IMG/VR virus record: IMGVR_UViG_3300005613_000310
Span: 1 to 29,555 of that record
DNA from: a virus
Length of the DNA: 29,555 bases
Reading direction: 5' to 3' (one strand)
Positions 4,819-29,555 of the stretch are shown piece after piece (position 1 is the first letter of the stretch; each line of letters starts with the position of its first letter). The notes beneath the pieces are model-generated. The model saw nothing but the letters and a program-made list of their open reading frames with translations. It was not told where the DNA came from and ran no database searches. Position numbers and translations under genes: made by a program.

Positions 4819-5478
4819 TTAATCTAATATGTCTTCTGTACGGTCTTCAACAAGTGATGGGTGCTTGATGTAATTTTTGAATTGAGTCAAACGATAAGCT
4901 TCCAGCTTTTTCTGTTTTTTCAAAACGCCATAGTGTTTAATCTTGGCAAAATCTAAATCAAAGATTAAAGGGTGTATTGATTTTGGGGACACATTAAGAT
5001 TTAAAACACATTCCCAATGCAAAGGATTTACACAATTATCTATTGTGCAGATATTTTTTTTTCTTTGTATACGTAAAGAACCAATGTCTCCCCACGCTGC
5101 TGTATACATTATCTTTGCAACCATTAAGTTTTCTGAAAAAGCTTTTGACGATTCCGATCTGTATGAAGGAAAAGTCATTCTTTTGGTTTTAATATCACAG
5201 GGCCAGCACTCTTCAATTCCTTTTAGCTCTACATGTTTTAAAAATTCTAAGAAGCGTACTTTATATTCGCTTTCTATATAGTTGACATCAAACCCGCAAG
5301 AGTTTATTGAAATCTTATGGGCACAGTGATAGCACCATTTGTCCTTAATAGAACGTATGTCATGTCCATGGATGCATTGCATACCTCGATAAAGACCTAA
5401 ATTTTCCAGGCTTTTTTTATCAAGACTGTCTACATCTTTGTGGAAGGGAAGGACGATTGGTTGTTTTTTTTCAGGCAT
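4819..5478 (-). CDS. Putative HNH-type endonuclease with zinc-binding Cys pairs
   Basis: A 219-aa protein. Residues 35-54 contain a zinc-ribbon-like set C-x2-G-H ... C-Y-H-C. Residues 145-158 contain C-x4-C-V-N-P-L-H-W, which matches the C-x4-C-x-N-P-x-H signature of phage HNH nucleases with a zinc-bound core. Such proteins often behave as free-standing homing endonucleases that cut DNA and promote their own spread. The ATG lies within the end of the upstream HNH gene (8-bp overlap), so the two nucleases are adjacent and probably co-transcribed. The catalytic His is not certain. Confidence 0.65.
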   Translation of the reverse strand: MPEKKQPIVLPFHKDVDSLDKKSLENLGLYRGMQCIHGHDIRSIKDKWCYHCAHKISINSCGFDVNYIESEYKVRFLEFLKHVELKGIEECWPCDIKTKRMTFPSYRSESSKAFSENLMVAKIMYTAAWGDIGSLRIQRKKNICTIDNCVNPLHWECVLNLNVSPKSIHPLIFDLDFAKIKHYGVLKKQKKLEAYRLTQFKNYIKHPSLVEDRTEDILD

Positions 5479-5866
5479 TTTTATTTTGCTTTACGGTACG
5501 ATAACGAAGTGAACTTCTGCGTGCAAAATCGTTAAGTTTCATTCCTTCCCAAACTTTTAATTCTTTTCTGTTATCTTTATCTTTATTACTGTCTAAATGA
5601 ATGATATCTTTGCCGCAAGGATCTTCTCCCGTTCTTAGAAAGTATACGATGCGATGGGCATGATACTGCTCACCAAACAAACGCACAACATAGTACTCAC
5701 CTGTCGCGTTCCACTTGCCACACATCTCTCCTTTTGTGCGCCAGCCATCCTCGTAAACCCACTCTAGTCCGCTTGGATATTTTTCAGAAAGTTTCAAGTA
5801 TTCCTGGGCCTGTTCGAGCGAGTTAAATGGAAGTGCTTTGTAGCGACGGCGAGTCAATGAAGACAT
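5471..5866 (-). CDS. HNH endonuclease
   Basis: A 131-aa protein with a typical phage HNH arrangement: A-H-R-I-V-Y-F-L-R-T-G near residues 71-81, then D-I-I-H-L-D-S-N-K-x-N-R-K-E-L at about 88-105, where the I-H-x-D-x-N-K-x-x-N block carries the catalytic His and the Asn. These enzymes nick or cut DNA and are frequent free-standing homing genes in phages. ATG at 5866 is preferred to the GTG one codon before. The bipartite element at 5875-5918 lies directly upstream, its inner motif ending only 8 bp before the ATG, so the message could be nearly leaderless if the element is a promoter. Confidence 0.82.
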   Translation of the reverse strand: MSSLTRRRYKALPFNSLEQAQEYLKLSEKYPSGLEWVYEDGWRTKGEMCGKWNATGEYYVVRLFGEQYHAHRIVYFLRTGEDPCGKDIIHLDSNKDKDNRKELKVWEGMKLNDFARRSSLRYRTVKQNKNA

Positions 5867-5874
5867 CACAAAAA

Positions 5875-5918
5875 CCGATTACACCTTTATTTTAACTAAG
5901 ATAAAAGAAAACGTACAC
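5875..5918 (-). promoter_or_regulatory. Bipartite repeated element, copy A (putative phage promoter)
   Basis: On the minus strand it reads GTGTACGTTT, 23 nt, GGTGTAATCGG, matching copies at 24849-24892, 25457-25500 and 25600-25643 with identical spacing. It lies between the terminator of the glycosyltransferase gene (5929-5952) and the start of the HNH gene (5866), exactly where a promoter is expected. Neither half matches the host consensus well, so a phage-encoded factor is possible. Confidence 0.65.
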
Positions 5919-5972: not shown

Positions 5973-7181
5973 TTAGGCGGCTTGCTCTGTGTCCACCTTC
6001 TCTTCCAGCACCTCATCGAATACCTCTTCGAAGTTCGCGGCAATTGTATCCCATTGGTACATAGGATCTAGAGCTCGTTCCTTACATGCCATTCCAATTG
6101 CCTTTAATTTTTCTCGATCATGATACAGGTCATTAAGAATCTCAGCAAGATGATCAGCGGAAGGGACTGGCATTCTTCGATTAAAGTTCATGTCTACATC
6201 AACGAATGCAGTATCAATAAGAAGTCCAGCGCCATGGAAAATTTCTTTTAAAGAAGTGTGATCTGGTACAACTTGCGCCACACCACAGGCAGCATGTTCA
6301 TGGTTGACAAGACCATGCCCCTCGCCTTTACAGGTATTTACACCCACGTCTACTGCGTTATAAATAACATTTAAAAGTCTTACTGGAACATTAGGAGGGT
6401 GCGGACTATTTGATGTCATGATGATGCGCCCATTTGCATCAATGCCACGCTTATTCATTTCTTGTGCAAATAATGACATGATGTCCCAGCCTTGATCTTT
6501 GAGCCCCATGTGCATATAAAGCATTGCATCAGGCTTGTCTTCCGCAAATTTAGCGAAGGCTTCAATGGTCACGTCTTGACGCTTACGTGCTTGGTTTCTA
6601 TTTCCATTAAACACGATAAAGCTTTCTTCTTTGAGACCAAGCTCTCTACGACATTCAGCTTTATCTAAAGTTGTGAACTGAGAAGTTGTCACGCCATGCG
6701 GAATAACTACAATTTCTTTAGGGTATCCCGCATTCATAAATTCGCGAGCGCCAAACTCGGTGTAGATAATAAGCTTATCCCAAGCAGGACTCTTATCAAG
6801 TAAGCCGCCTGCCCACTGATAAGAATCCATGGGACAGTAAGCGACAAACTTGAAGTCCCCTTTCTTATGTAGATTTTCAATCTGTGAATAGATTTGGTTA
6901 ACAATCCAAACATCATTGTTTACAAAGACAATGTCAGGCTTTTCACGTTCCACAACTTCGCGGATACGCTGCACACCGAATGGTTCTGTTTGATGTCGAT
7001 TGGAAGATGGATACATCCTGAATCTGTTTTGCAAGTCAGGTGCGGGATCACCCCACCAATTGTTTCCGAGAACAATGATTTCATATTTATCATCGAGTCG
7101 GGTAATTAAATTTTCTGTTACGCGAGCGAAGCCGGTCATGGCAACAACGTCACCACTCCATAAAATCTTTTTCTTAGTCAT
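5973..7181 (-). CDS. GT-B glycosyltransferase (GT4-like)
   Basis: A 402-aa glycosyltransferase with the GT-B fold that would transfer a sugar from a nucleotide sugar. The N-terminal domain has S-G-D-V-V-x-M-T-G-F-A-R-V-T; the linker has I-P-H-G-V near residue 160; the C-terminal domain has F-N-G-N-R-N-Q-A-R-K-R at about 191-201, where family 4 enzymes bind the donor phosphate, and G-E-G-H-G-L-V-N-H-E-H-A-A-C-G near 285-300, replacing the usual E-G-F-G-x-x-x-x-E-A-M-A-x-G. A good AGGAAG ribosome site precedes the ATG. Targets could be virion proteins, phage DNA bases or host surface sugars; the sequence does not say which. It has its own terminator. Confidence 0.88.
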   Translation of the reverse strand: MTKKKILWSGDVVAMTGFARVTENLITRLDDKYEIIVLGNNWWGDPAPDLQNRFRMYPSSNRHQTEPFGVQRIREVVEREKPDIVFVNNDVWIVNQIYSQIENLHKKGDFKFVAYCPMDSYQWAGGLLDKSPAWDKLIIYTEFGAREFMNAGYPKEIVVIPHGVTTSQFTTLDKAECRRELGLKEESFIVFNGNRNQARKRQDVTIEAFAKFAEDKPDAMLYMHMGLKDQGWDIMSLFAQEMNKRGIDANGRIIMTSNSPHPPNVPVRLLNVIYNAVDVGVNTCKGEGHGLVNHEHAACGVAQVVPDHTSLKEIFHGAGLLIDTAFVDVDMNFNRRMPVPSADHLAEILNDLYHDREKLKAIGMACKERALDPMYQWDTIAANFEEVFDEVLEEKVDTEQAA

Positions 7182-21167: not shown

Positions 21168-21172
21168 TGAAG

Positions 21173-21222
21173 AACGTTCACCGGTTCACACCGGCGCACT
21201 TCTTCAGGCAGGGAACGGGGCC
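21173..21222 (+). ncRNA. Glutamine riboswitch-like RNA (glnA / downstream-peptide type)
   Basis: P1 is CGTTC (21175-21179) with GAACG (21213-21217). Inside is an ACC-CCGG hairpin (21181-21184 with 21191-21194, loop TTCACA), then GCGCA, a pyrimidine stretch, and G-G-G-A-A-C-G-G-G-G-C-C at the 3' side. This agrees with the family layout I recall for glutamine aptamers: CGUUCACC, hairpin, G-CGCA/ACGGAAG junction, and GGAACGNGCC. These RNAs lie before small peptides in Synechococcus, Prochlorococcus and phages, and control nitrogen-related genes. The downstream YRG-motif peptide strengthens the call. The junction region differs from my memory of the consensus, so a covariance search is decisive. 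Confidence 0.7.
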
Positions 21223-21245
21223 TGAGATTTGACGAGGAACTGACC

Positions 21246-24796: not shown

Positions 24797-24848
24797 CGGG
24801 GTGGGTTGAATGTACTGAGGGATTGTAACAAGGTTGTGTGTATAAAAA

Positions 24849-24892
24849 CCGATTACACCTATAAATTATCTTGGTACTAAAGAAACGTACAC
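24849..24892 (-). promoter_or_regulatory. Bipartite repeated element, copy B (putative phage promoter)
   Basis: GTGTACGTTT, 23 nt, GGTGTAATCGG on the minus strand, followed by TTTTTATA. The flank outside GTGTAC (T-A-C-G-T-T-A-A-C-C-C-C-C-C-T-T) is also shared with copies C and D. It lies between the genes at 25033 and 24796. Confidence 0.65.
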
Positions 24893-25438: not shown

Positions 25439-25456
25439 TTAAATGACGCAAAAAAA

Positions 25457-25500
25457 CCGATTACACCCCTTCGCAAATCCCCCTATAGAAAAACGTACAC
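25457..25500 (-). promoter_or_regulatory. Bipartite repeated element, copy C
   Basis: GTGTACGTTT, 23 nt, GGTGTAATCGG on the minus strand, followed by TTTTTTTG. It points leftward to the 25332 gene and forms the left arm of the 189-bp inverted repeat. Confidence 0.65.
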
Positions 25501-27510: not shown

Positions 27511-27680
27511 GGTTTGAGTTGATGTATGTTTGAGACTTCAGTGGTGATGAAGCCTTGTTGCTTGAATGCCAGGGGAATTGGCGAAACAATCCCCCAAACC
27601 TGGGACTTACGCCGTAGAGAATCATGGCGCGAAAGCACCACACAGTCACGCCACGATGCTGCCCAGATAACAGTGATCAG
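27507..27680 (-). CDS. Putative 57-aa protein with non-ATG start (CTG or GTG)
   Basis: A frame from CTG at 27680, overlapping the preceding stop as CTGA, to a TGA at 27507-27509 that overlaps the next ATG as ATGA. Residues read I-T-V-I-W-A-A-S-W-R-D-C-V-V-L-S-R-H-D-S-L-R-R-K, then V-W-G-I-V-S-P-I-P-L-A-F-K-Q-Q-G-F-I-T-T-E. The composition is convincingly protein-like, and much more so than the longer frame on the same strand (27452-27649). No ATG is available; a GTG gives a 44-aa version. Both ends match the coupling style of the operon. Confidence 0.45.
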   Translation of the reverse strand: MITVIWAASWRDCVVLSRHDSLRRKSQVWGIVSPIPLAFKQQGFITTEVSNIHQLKP

Positions 27681-28048
27681 ACCATGGAAAGGTACTGACC
27701 TGTCATCCTTGCCTTAGAGACCTTACGTTTGATGCCAGTGATGGCACGAAGGTCTCCGCTTGATTGAATCATTAATGACTCATTGGAAGTATACAAAGGA
27801 TGAACAGCAGGCGCAAGGTTAGTGGTTGGTTCGTATCGATATACGAACAAAGACTCTATCTTATTTCTGTATCGTTTACGGTTTGCATATAAATGCACAC
27901 AAACTGTGATTAATAAAGCGATGCCAGAAATAACGTGATGATGTAAGTGTTGCCGGTAGAACTTACCTGTTTCATAGCCTAAATCGTAGCCAGTTTGGAT
28001 CAGAATTGACAGCACATTAAGTGCTCGAAGGATGTTGTGATTGTGCAT
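27677..28048 (-). CDS. Membrane protein with His-rich N terminus
   Basis: A 123-aa protein with ATG at 28048, about 26 bp after hammerhead copy 1. N terminus MHNHNILRALNVLSILIQTG is hydrophobic; a second hydrophobic helix follows near residues 36-54 (H-H-H-V-I-S-G-I-A-L-L-I-T-V-C-V-H-L-Y), then a basic patch (N-R-K-R-Y-R-N-K) that suggests cytoplasmic location. The C-terminal half is soluble. The role is unknown; superinfection exclusion or host membrane modification is possible. Confidence 0.7.
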   Translation of the reverse strand: MHNHNILRALNVLSILIQTGYDLGYETGKFYRQHLHHHVISGIALLITVCVHLYANRKRYRNKIESLFVYRYEPTTNLAPAVHPLYTSNESLMIQSSGDLRAITGIKRKVSKARMTGQYLSMV

Positions 28049-28073
28049 TGGATTGTTGAAAAGAATAGTGGCA

Positions 28074-28131
28074 GACTCATCAGCCAGGGGATGCCAACCC
28101 CTAGGACCATCCCCGAAGGGATGGTTTCGTC
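28074..28131 (-). ncRNA. Type II hammerhead ribozyme, copy 1
   Basis: Read from 28131 to 28074. Stem II 5' strand GAC, then GAAA; stem III of 8 bp closed by a TTCG tetraloop (28125-28106); T-C before the cut after C 28105; stem I of 7 bp (28104-28098 with 28090-28084, one T-G pair) with loop TTGGCAT; then CTGATGA (28083-28077) and stem II 3' strand GTC. All conserved core bases of a hammerhead are present. Stem II is the open helix, so it is type II. It fills the gap between the genes ending at 28136 and starting at 28048. Confidence 0.93.
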
Positions 28132-28135
28132 GAGA

Positions 28136-28897
28136 TCAATTGAACAGCAGCTCAGAAAGCTCGTGCACATCTTGACTGACATAAGAGACCAACTTACCAG
28201 CCGTGCCATGAGCAGGGATGAAAATATCAGTCTTTGAACCATCACATAGAGTGCAAGATTGACACTTAGCTTGTGAGTTTGGAACCTCAGTCGGACATAG
28301 CTTGCCGATGTTAGCTACATCGGTATCACCCTTGTTGACAACCGAGAAACACTTCCACCCCTTAGAAGAGGCCTCTAGATAATCTCCGAATGAATCACAT
28401 GATGCCTGGAATATACCAATGAAAGTATCAGCAAATGCATGTCTCCATTGATGAGTGTATCCAGTGTGACCCTCAGCTTTCTCATTGAAAGACTTCACAA
28501 TAGAAGGGTCAATCACAGAAGGATCCCCATATGCACCCCACCTAATATGGCGGCCCGATAGTAACCGGGGGACATTAAAGCAATTGTTAATGCCAGGATA
28601 CAAACCCTTCTTGTAAGCACGCCAGATAGATAATGGCGCTTGACCTGGATTCACATAGCAAGTTCTATGTAACTTGCCATCAGAATGTAGTCGCAAACGA
28701 TGTGGACAATCTCCACATATAGTTTGATCTAAGCCTGACTTAATTGCATCAACAGGATTAACATCCTCATGCAATATCCAGACCTGGATCATATTGCCCG
28801 TCTTCTTATTAGAAGACTTCATTGTCATGATTACAACGAAAGGTTCACCATTGATAGGTGAAAGTCCCCGCTGTAAAACATAGCCGTTACTTGACAT
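28136..28897 (-). CDS. Cys-containing phage protein of unknown function
   Basis: A 253-aa protein from ATG at 28897 (MSSNGYVLQRGLSPINGEPF); the longer frame would run through hammerhead copy 2. Residues about 63-70 have C-G-D-C-P-H-R, followed near 80 by R-T-C-Y-V-N-P-G-Q-A-P-L-S-I-W-R-A-Y, then R-H-I-R-W-G-A-Y-G-D-P. Near the end, C-P-T-E ... C-Q-S-C-T-L-C resembles a second Cys cluster. Proteins with this G-D-C-P-H-R ... C-Y-V pattern are common in phages (I think DUF7227) and have no known function; metal binding is likely. Confidence 0.7.
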   Translation of the reverse strand: MSSNGYVLQRGLSPINGEPFVVIMTMKSSNKKTGNMIQVWILHEDVNPVDAIKSGLDQTICGDCPHRLRLHSDGKLHRTCYVNPGQAPLSIWRAYKKGLYPGINNCFNVPRLLSGRHIRWGAYGDPSVIDPSIVKSFNEKAEGHTGYTHQWRHAFADTFIGIFQASCDSFGDYLEASSKGWKCFSVVNKGDTDVANIGKLCPTEVPNSQAKCQSCTLCDGSKTDIFIPAHGTAGKLVSYVSQDVHELSELLFN

Positions 28898-28925
28898 GTT
28901 CGTAGTGGTGATTGAACAAATGGCA

Positions 28926-28985
28926 GGCTCATCAGTCCGGGCATGCCAAGCCCGGAGACTATCCCCCGTAGGAGATAGTTTCGCC
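28926..28985 (-). ncRNA. Type II hammerhead ribozyme, copy 2
   Basis: Read from 28985 to 28926. Stem II 5' strand GGC, GAAA; stem III of 9 bp with one T-G pair and TACG loop (28979-28958); cut after C 28957; stem I of 7 bp (28956-28950 with 28942-28936) with loop TTGGCAT; CTGATGA (28935-28929); stem II 3' strand GCC. All core bases match copy 1, while stem I, II and III sequences differ with pairing preserved. It fills the gap after the stop at 28987 and before the ATG at 28897. Confidence 0.94.
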
Positions 28986-28986
28986 A

Positions 28987-29298
28987 TTAACCCTTGTATA
29001 AAAACCCTCCAAACATATCGCATTGCTGCGGATTGCTTGTGAGATGTTCTAGATCGTAACGTTTACCCTTAGCAGGCGATTGCCAGGAAGCAGGCTTATA
29101 AACTGCCCCCTCTTTATCGATGAAACAGAATACACTACGCTGTGAATTGCGGTCATCAATTTTAATAAGTTTGAAATACTTTCTACCCTTAGTGTAAGAA
29201 AGCACATCAGAACAAAAGCCATGTTTTTCTGACCATTGATTAGTCAGAGTTTCACATAGAGTTTCAATTGATTGTTCAATGTTCATAGTGTTTGCCAT
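28987..29298 (-). CDS. Phage protein of unknown function (KPASW type)
   Basis: A 103-aa protein from ATG at 29298. It has T-K-G-R-K-Y-F-K-L-I near residue 36, C-F-I-D-K-E-G-A-V-Y-K-P-A-S-W-Q-S-P-A-K-G-K-R-Y at about 58-80, and a short C-terminal region. The F-I-D-x-x-x-G-x-x-Y-K-P-A-S-W-x-x-P-A-K pattern is familiar from many unrelated phages, usually as a small conserved hypothetical. It overlaps the upstream gene by 16 bp. Its stop lies one base from stem II of hammerhead copy 2. Confidence 0.72.
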   Translation of the reverse strand: MANTMNIEQSIETLCETLTNQWSEKHGFCSDVLSYTKGRKYFKLIKIDDRNSQRSVFCFIDKEGAVYKPASWQSPAKGKRYDLEHLTSNPQQCDMFGGFLYKG

Positions 29299-29477: not shown

Positions 29478-29555
29478 AGTGGTGATAGAACAAGAATGGC
29501 AACATGACTGCTGCCAATAACTGCCGGAGGGATTGCACACTCCGGACCCGCTTGA
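29478..29555 (-). other. Structured leader resembling a degenerate hammerhead region
   Basis: The leader shares features with the region between hammerhead copy 2 and its gene: a T-T-G-T-T-C-N-A-T-C-A-C-C-A-C-T segment and a GTC followed by a CGGAG/CTCCG hairpin near the edge. No CTGATGA is seen, so an active hammerhead is not supported within the window; the rest of the element may lie outside or be decayed. Confidence 0.3.

Follow-up and report, generated by a model that had tools for sequence, protein, structure and literature searches.

Two elements in viral record IMGVR_UViG_3300005613_000310 are, on the evidence of sequence and structure comparison, well supported as type II hammerhead ribozymes sited between the cistrons of a minus-strand operon ("the window" below is the whole 29,555-nucleotide stretch analysed, positions 1 to 29,555 of that record). 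Both are quite probably functional and would cut the operon RNA in the cell between genes, giving single-gene messages. In themselves the ribozymes do not depart from the ordinary type II form, and the idea that they process the transcript goes back to 2011 (Perreault et al., 2011; PMC3088659). What is new is that sibling gaps of the same operons carry a possible tRNA-like element of ~50 nt, and that either element, if cut, would leave a 5′ hairpin on the next message. Hammerheads of all three types are known from phages, and their role was considered unsettled in reviews of 2017 and 2020 (PMC6155905; PMC7761336). That role, in prokaryotes as in phages, has been open since 2011, and the stop-ribozyme-start geometry described here makes the idea of message punctuation quantitative. 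Within the literature covered, which included few subscription papers or preprints, no account was found of such array density, of the stop-start geometry, of cyanophage hammerheads or of alternation with tRNA-like elements.

Hammerhead ribozymes in the window

The two ribozymes and their 3′ tails are located as follows.

28926..28985, minus strand: type II hammerhead ribozyme, copy A (Rfam RF02276, independent model, MFE fold)
28921..28925, minus strand: 3′ tail UGCCA of copy A, predicted pseudoknot partner of loop I UUGGCAU (sequence and survey covariation)
28074..28131, minus strand: type II hammerhead ribozyme, copy B (Rfam RF02276, independent model, MFE fold)
28069..28073, minus strand: 3′ tail UGCCA of copy B, predicted pseudoknot partner of loop I UUGGCAU (sequence and survey covariation)

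Read 5′ to 3′ (28985-28926, minus strand), copy A comprises GGC, GAAA, stem III with a UACG loop, the UC site, a 7-bp stem I, CUGAUGA and GCC, while copy B (28131-28074, minus strand) comprises GAC, GAAA, an 8-bp stem III with a UUCG loop, UC, a 7-bp stem I, CUGAUGA and GUC. The core required by RF02276 (CUGANGA...GAAA...U-H) is complete in both copies as CUGAUGA, GAAA and the UC site. Three stems meet at this core, with stem II open and stems I and III closed by loops, as judged from MFE folds and from covariation among 42 hammerheads. The hammerhead is the MFE structure of both copies (-26.4 and -30.5 kcal/mol; z -2.0 and -4.2), and the predicted cleavage residue, C17, is 28957 in copy A and 28105 in copy B. 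An earlier note, made from the letters alone, had placed two type II hammerheads at exactly these minus-strand coordinates; its core motifs and three stems, its exchange of GAC/GTC (B) for GGC/GCC (A) in stem II and of TTCG for TACG in the tetraloops, and its two cut positions were likewise found as described. It overlooked that loop I can form a pseudoknot with the 3′ tail. This feature of RF02276, which Perreault et al. (2011; PMC3088659) had found in type II hammerheads, is present in both copies as a potential pairing of UUGGCAU with UGCCA. The note also overstated how far each copy fills the space between genes (“nearly all”), as ribozyme and pseudoknot tail together take up ~73% of each gap (89 nt for A, 87 nt for B). 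Stem II lies 1 nt (A) and 4 nt (B) from the preceding stop codon, and the ribozyme 28 nt (A) and 25 nt (B) from the next start. There is no third hammerhead in the window, where the next match to model R1 scores 12.2 bits (E 0.12) and falls within a coding gene.

A search with Rfam Hammerhead_II (RF02276), which the earlier note had proposed, gave a divided result. In a permissive search both copies match over the full length of the model (36.0 bits for copy B, 35.9 bits for copy A), with E-values of 2.6e-5 and 2.8e-5 in 1.3 kb and ~1.5e-7 within the window's own record, but at the gathering threshold of 37 bits, which is a curator's cut-off and no structural feature, neither copy is listed. 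This score, 1 bit below the cut-off, is the only difference between the window copies and RF02276, with which they share the core, the open stem II of 2-3 bp, the closed stems I and III, the pseudoknot and the phage context (PMC3088659). To guard against circularity, a second model (R2) was derived from 31 hammerheads on unrelated phage contigs, with all sequences of this phage group kept out of it. It assigns 72.7 bits to copy A and 71.9 bits to copy B (E 2-4e-16 over 151 kb). Chance occurrence was gauged with a structural descriptor that asks for stems like these: simulated sequence of matched dinucleotide composition gave a single match in 2.96 Mb, compared with two in the 30-kb window. Rfam matches to PhotoRC-I and c4-a1b1 inside the ribozymes were rejected as chance resemblance to hairpins.

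The phage and its flanking genes

Both ribozymes are read in the same direction as the small, co-directional genes whose gaps they occupy, all within one operon, and their orthologs are placed likewise in two related contigs, L003 and L169.

28987..29298, minus strand: upstream gene, 103 aa, DUF7717 (Pfam PF24835, E 1.9e-22), with its stop 1 nt before stem II of copy A
28136..28897, minus strand: middle gene, 253 aa, phrog_2554 of unknown function (E 1.8e-64)
27677..28048, minus strand: downstream gene, 123 aa, phrog_3587 of unknown function (E 2.9e-14)

The start of the middle gene was set by its 253-aa ortholog at L003:6001-6762. A search of the 2.7-kb region gave no sigma-70-like promoter. 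This agrees with a read-through transcript, although such an absence is weak evidence for a phage. The DNA polymerase A encoded in the window shares 57% identity over its full length with that of Synechococcus phage S-EIV1, the next best match being 43%. Together with a primase, a glycosyltransferase and a glutamine-II riboswitch, the polymerase suggests a cyanophage, and the virus is probably an S-EIV1-related phage with a putative cyanobacterial host.

The glutamine-II riboswitch aptamer (window 21172-21226, plus strand) scores 46.0 bits against a gathering score of 33 and stands ahead of a 50-aa ORF. At 22946-22861 on the minus strand lies a tRNA gene (52.5 bits), probably for tRNA-Leu, that has a long variable arm. 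The window also contains a 49-nt repeat, AAAAACCGATTACACC...AAACGTACAC, at 5870-5918, 24844-24892 and 25452-25500, possibly a phage promoter or leader for minus-strand genes.

Conservation in related phages

A near relative, represented by two contigs (L003 and L004), retains both ribozymes at the same places. Between L003 and the window, the flanking genes share 92-93% DNA identity and the aligned gaps 90% and 93%. In copy A, a G-C pair of stem II and a G-C pair of stem I are each replaced by A-U, and in copy B a C-G pair of stem III is replaced by U-A, with pairing retained in every case. Two further one-sided changes are compatible with pairing, and the core is unchanged. Copy B of L003 also has two changes that break pairs, namely the loop-closing pair of stem I and one pair of the pseudoknot, so activity may escape strong selection in some copies. 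A third phage, L169, carries three hammerheads (75.0, 62.6 and 56.1 bits). All three stems are rewritten in the one that follows its DUF7717 gene, and in another the loop UUGACAU and the tail UGUCA constitute a double change in the pseudoknot. Stem II is irregular in L169:1030-1099 and 1496-1566, with a U.U opposition beside the core and an extra U after CUGAUGA.

Across the 42 hammerheads, 88.9% of cells are paired, against 30-41% when the 3′ partners are slid, and covariation is 0.614, against 0.160 when shuffled and 0.08-0.15 when slid. The search descriptor had itself imposed part of the stem pairing in the surveyed set, which leaves the pseudoknot, the comparison of orthologs and gene placement as the only independent tests. 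The pseudoknot, scored on 49 loops and lying outside the seed-pattern selection, reaches 11.9, compared with 8.2 +/- 0.4 with tails shuffled.

Distribution is patchy. Among relatives of the 253-aa gene (L005-L013), of a 62-aa gene (L370-L383) and of an 89-aa gene, hammerheads were found only in L003/L004, L169 and the distant L338. The S-EIV1 genome has none by the descriptor or by either model, and most related contigs that share the small-gene module gave no hammerhead match, which suggests that the ribozymes come and go.

Hammerhead arrays and gene placement in other phages

A seed-pattern scan of viral contigs returned at least 119 stretches, and among the matches listed 39 contain full hammerheads, often many. 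The same pattern in bacterial genomes gave no convincing hammerhead in 118 loci, compared with 39/119 in viruses, again among the matches listed and to be read as a contrast only. By Rfam matches, the densest contig (G007) has 17 hammerheads in 8.5 kb, followed by G005 with 14, G004 with 9, and G003, G006 and G009 with 8 each.

G007:C1:5561-14102: 17 Rfam Hammerhead_II matches in contig IMGVR_UViG_2856781440_000005
L288:1626-9114 (record 31626-50588, reversed): nine hammerheads of phage Andris in annotated gaps, two of them in gap 2541-2904

Among the matches listed, 34 phage contigs supplied 91 distinct type II hammerheads for an assessment of gene placement. Automatic gene calling by longest ORF was dropped because it picked antisense ORFs in GC-rich contigs, and a strand-aware test was used instead. 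An ORF stop lies within 40 nt upstream in 79/91 hammerheads (median 1 nt from stem II), and a start codon 5-60 nt downstream in 85/91 (median 25 nt, quartiles 22-28). Both flank 75 of the 91, as opposed to 10% of random same-strand positions. Nine type II hammerheads (E 1.8e-15 to 2e-3) occur in one operon of Andris, a cultured Streptomyces phage (OP751147; host S. lividans), every one of them (9/9) in an annotated gap of at least 60 nt; such gaps make up 12% of the stretch, and 8/12 are occupied by one or two hammerheads. In this phage, with its nine hammerheads in annotated gaps, the punctuation idea is directly testable.

Proposed processing of the operon transcript

The function best supported by this anatomy and by published phage examples is cleavage of the polycistronic RNA into separate messages, as the earlier note had proposed; for the copies in the window it is a prediction. 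The arrangement is less unusual for a phage than that note had assumed, as both it and the hypothesis were published in 2011 (PMC3088659) and it recurs across dozens of the phage contigs surveyed. The 2011 proposal of Perreault et al. was that polycistronic prophage transcripts are processed into single-gene mRNAs, and cleavage was shown for several examples: self-cleavage in vitro is on record for type II and for clustered phage hammerheads, and the Agrobacterium tumefaciens triplet also cuts itself when transcribed in E. coli (PMC3088659). The ardA triplet of A. tumefaciens and the clusters of Clostridium scindens and Azorhizobium caulinodans likewise have several hammerheads flanking single small genes within one transcription unit (PMC3088659). 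The window differs from those clustered prophage hammerheads in that its phage is cyanophage-related, copy A is succeeded by a shared leader hairpin whose loop is TCACCAC, and a possible tRNA-like element takes the hammerhead's place in neighbouring gaps.

A long minus-strand transcript of the small-gene operon would be cut just past one stop codon and ~25 nt before the next start. In the type II layout both stem I and stem III are hairpins closed by loops, so each cut would leave hairpin ends: hairpin III, carrying a 2′,3′-cyclic phosphate, at the end of the upstream message, and hairpin I, with a 5′-OH, at the start of the downstream one. We did not find this predicted consequence stated in the literature searched. 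Cutting at both sites would free the 253-aa gene on an RNA of 852 nt. In bacteria, mRNA decay of the RNase E type tends to be slower when the 5′ end is a hairpin and when it lacks a monophosphate. With a hairpin at either end, single-gene messages would probably have their stability and translation uncoupled from those of their neighbours, a benefit that we put forward as a hypothesis.

Cleavage might instead have been selected to release the 852-nt RNA for closure into a circular mRNA by a host RNA ligase or the reverse hammerhead reaction, which we consider improbable. One gene (28956-28105) is indeed flanked by two hammerheads, and a 5′-OH and a 2′,3′-cyclic phosphate are ligatable ends of known chemistry. 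In viroid-like RNAs, moreover, circle formation is a known hammerhead role. Long arrays with a ribozyme in nearly every gap, however, suit punctuation better than a single circle, and circular or spliced products of clustered hammerheads were sought by Perreault et al. and none were found (PMC3088659).

It is similarly unlikely that the ribozymes serve mainly as borders of exchangeable gene cassettes, or recombination spacers, with RNA cutting secondary. Their neighbours do change: ribozyme A in L003 has the same downstream gene and a different upstream gene, in L169 it is the downstream gene that differs for the ribozyme following the DUF7717 gene, and flanked genes vary in the clusters of Perreault et al. 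(PMC3088659). Contig L094 carries near-identical ribozymes repeatedly. Compensatory change, though, has conserved the structure and not the DNA sequence, a pattern unexpected under selection for recombination identity, and the tight spacing to stop and start indicates a role at the RNA level. That both elements are ordinary hairpins (terminators or RNase III/E sites) resembling hammerheads by chance, or dead relics, is very improbable: Rfam scores just below gathering and strong GC-rich hairpins with UNCG loops would suit such a reading, but the independent model gives E ~1e-16, the core is complete in both copies, orthologs differ by compensatory changes, and an intrinsic terminator is rejected because stem III is followed by UCUCC and UCCUA, with no U tract, and neither hairpin is listed as terminator-like.

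Possible tRNA-like elements and leader hairpins in sister gaps

In L003, three gaps upstream of the hammerheads carry a sister element at the place of the hammerhead, as does the gap at the end of the window. The sister elements and the leader hairpins that occur in these operons are as follows.

29497..29555, minus strand: sister element, incomplete at the window end, with a T-arm-like hairpin and a TTGGCAGCA hairpin, possibly tRNA-like (matches L003 repeat D2)
L003:4895-4970, 5157-5230 and 5599-5672; L169:522-595: sister elements in relatives
28895..28919, minus strand: leader hairpin with TCACCAC loop between copy A and the start codon (repeat D18; folds in relatives)
29493-29469 and possibly 27547-27541, minus strand: further TCACCAC leader hairpins in the window
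L003:4967-4991, 5228-5250, 5670-5692 and 5978-6000; L169:597-619: TCACCAC leader hairpins in relatives

Two of the L003 sister copies form a 97-nt repeat (96% identical). All sister copies contain, directly after the possible tRNA-like part, a TTG(G/T)CAGCA hairpin (elsewhere given as TTG(G/T)CANCA) with a four-base loop and a stem that varies yet stays paired, and the repeat copies have a T-arm-like hairpin with the loop UGCAAUC. The TTG(G/T)CAGCA hairpin is followed by the leader hairpin with its TCACCAC loop and then by ATG. Leader stems also vary between copies with pairing retained (TTGTC/GACAA versus TGTTCT/AGAACA). An exact-pattern search with the sister-element core GTGTGCAATCCCTCC gave apparently meaningful matches only in the two near relatives; the rest are within chance for 15 bases.

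A tRNA-like nature of the sister elements, at ~50 nt, is possible. Within a small stretch, the best Rfam match of L003:4895-4943 and L169:522-569 is mascRNA-menRNA (RF01684). The 19.2 and 19.7 bits reached, well short of the 42.5 needed for gathering, denote a likeness of shape and no membership. The likeness consists of an acceptor-like stem, a T-arm with a canonical T-loop, a length of ~50 nt and the lack of an anticodon arm, and it concerns the sister gaps only. RNAs of the mascRNA type are processed by RNase P and RNase Z. Both elements have a UUCGA T-loop, and their acceptor-like stems differ yet pair (GUUCCUG/CAGGAAC, 7/7; GUUCCCG/CGGGAUC, 6/7). ARAGORN found no tRNA in the sister gaps, and free folding of L169:520-571 did not yield the tRNA shape.

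A search combining the T-loop with TTGGCANCA retrieved marine phage contigs (L385, L387-L395 and L398) with a 41-nt tRNA-like element that comprises only an acceptor stem of 6-7 bp and a T-arm and is followed by a TTGGCANCA leader. In L391 (511-551) this element stands right before a 384-aa ORF that we take for a capsid gene. A true tRNA-Gly precedes the same kind of TTGGCANCA leader at L400:622-694. No hammerhead was found in any of the marine contigs with the 41-nt element or the tRNA-Gly leader. The marine elements and this tRNA-Gly make punctuation of a tRNA type plausible. More tentatively, and with the odds against it, hammerheads and tRNA-like elements may be interchangeable intercistronic cassettes, one per gap, that cut themselves or are cut by host tRNA-processing enzymes, so that the downstream message would start with a hairpin, usually with a second leader hairpin before the start codon. 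If the sister elements are truly tRNA-like, a single phage operon would rely on two unrelated ways of cutting its RNA to the same end. A second glutamine-II riboswitch aptamer is located at L391:348-400.
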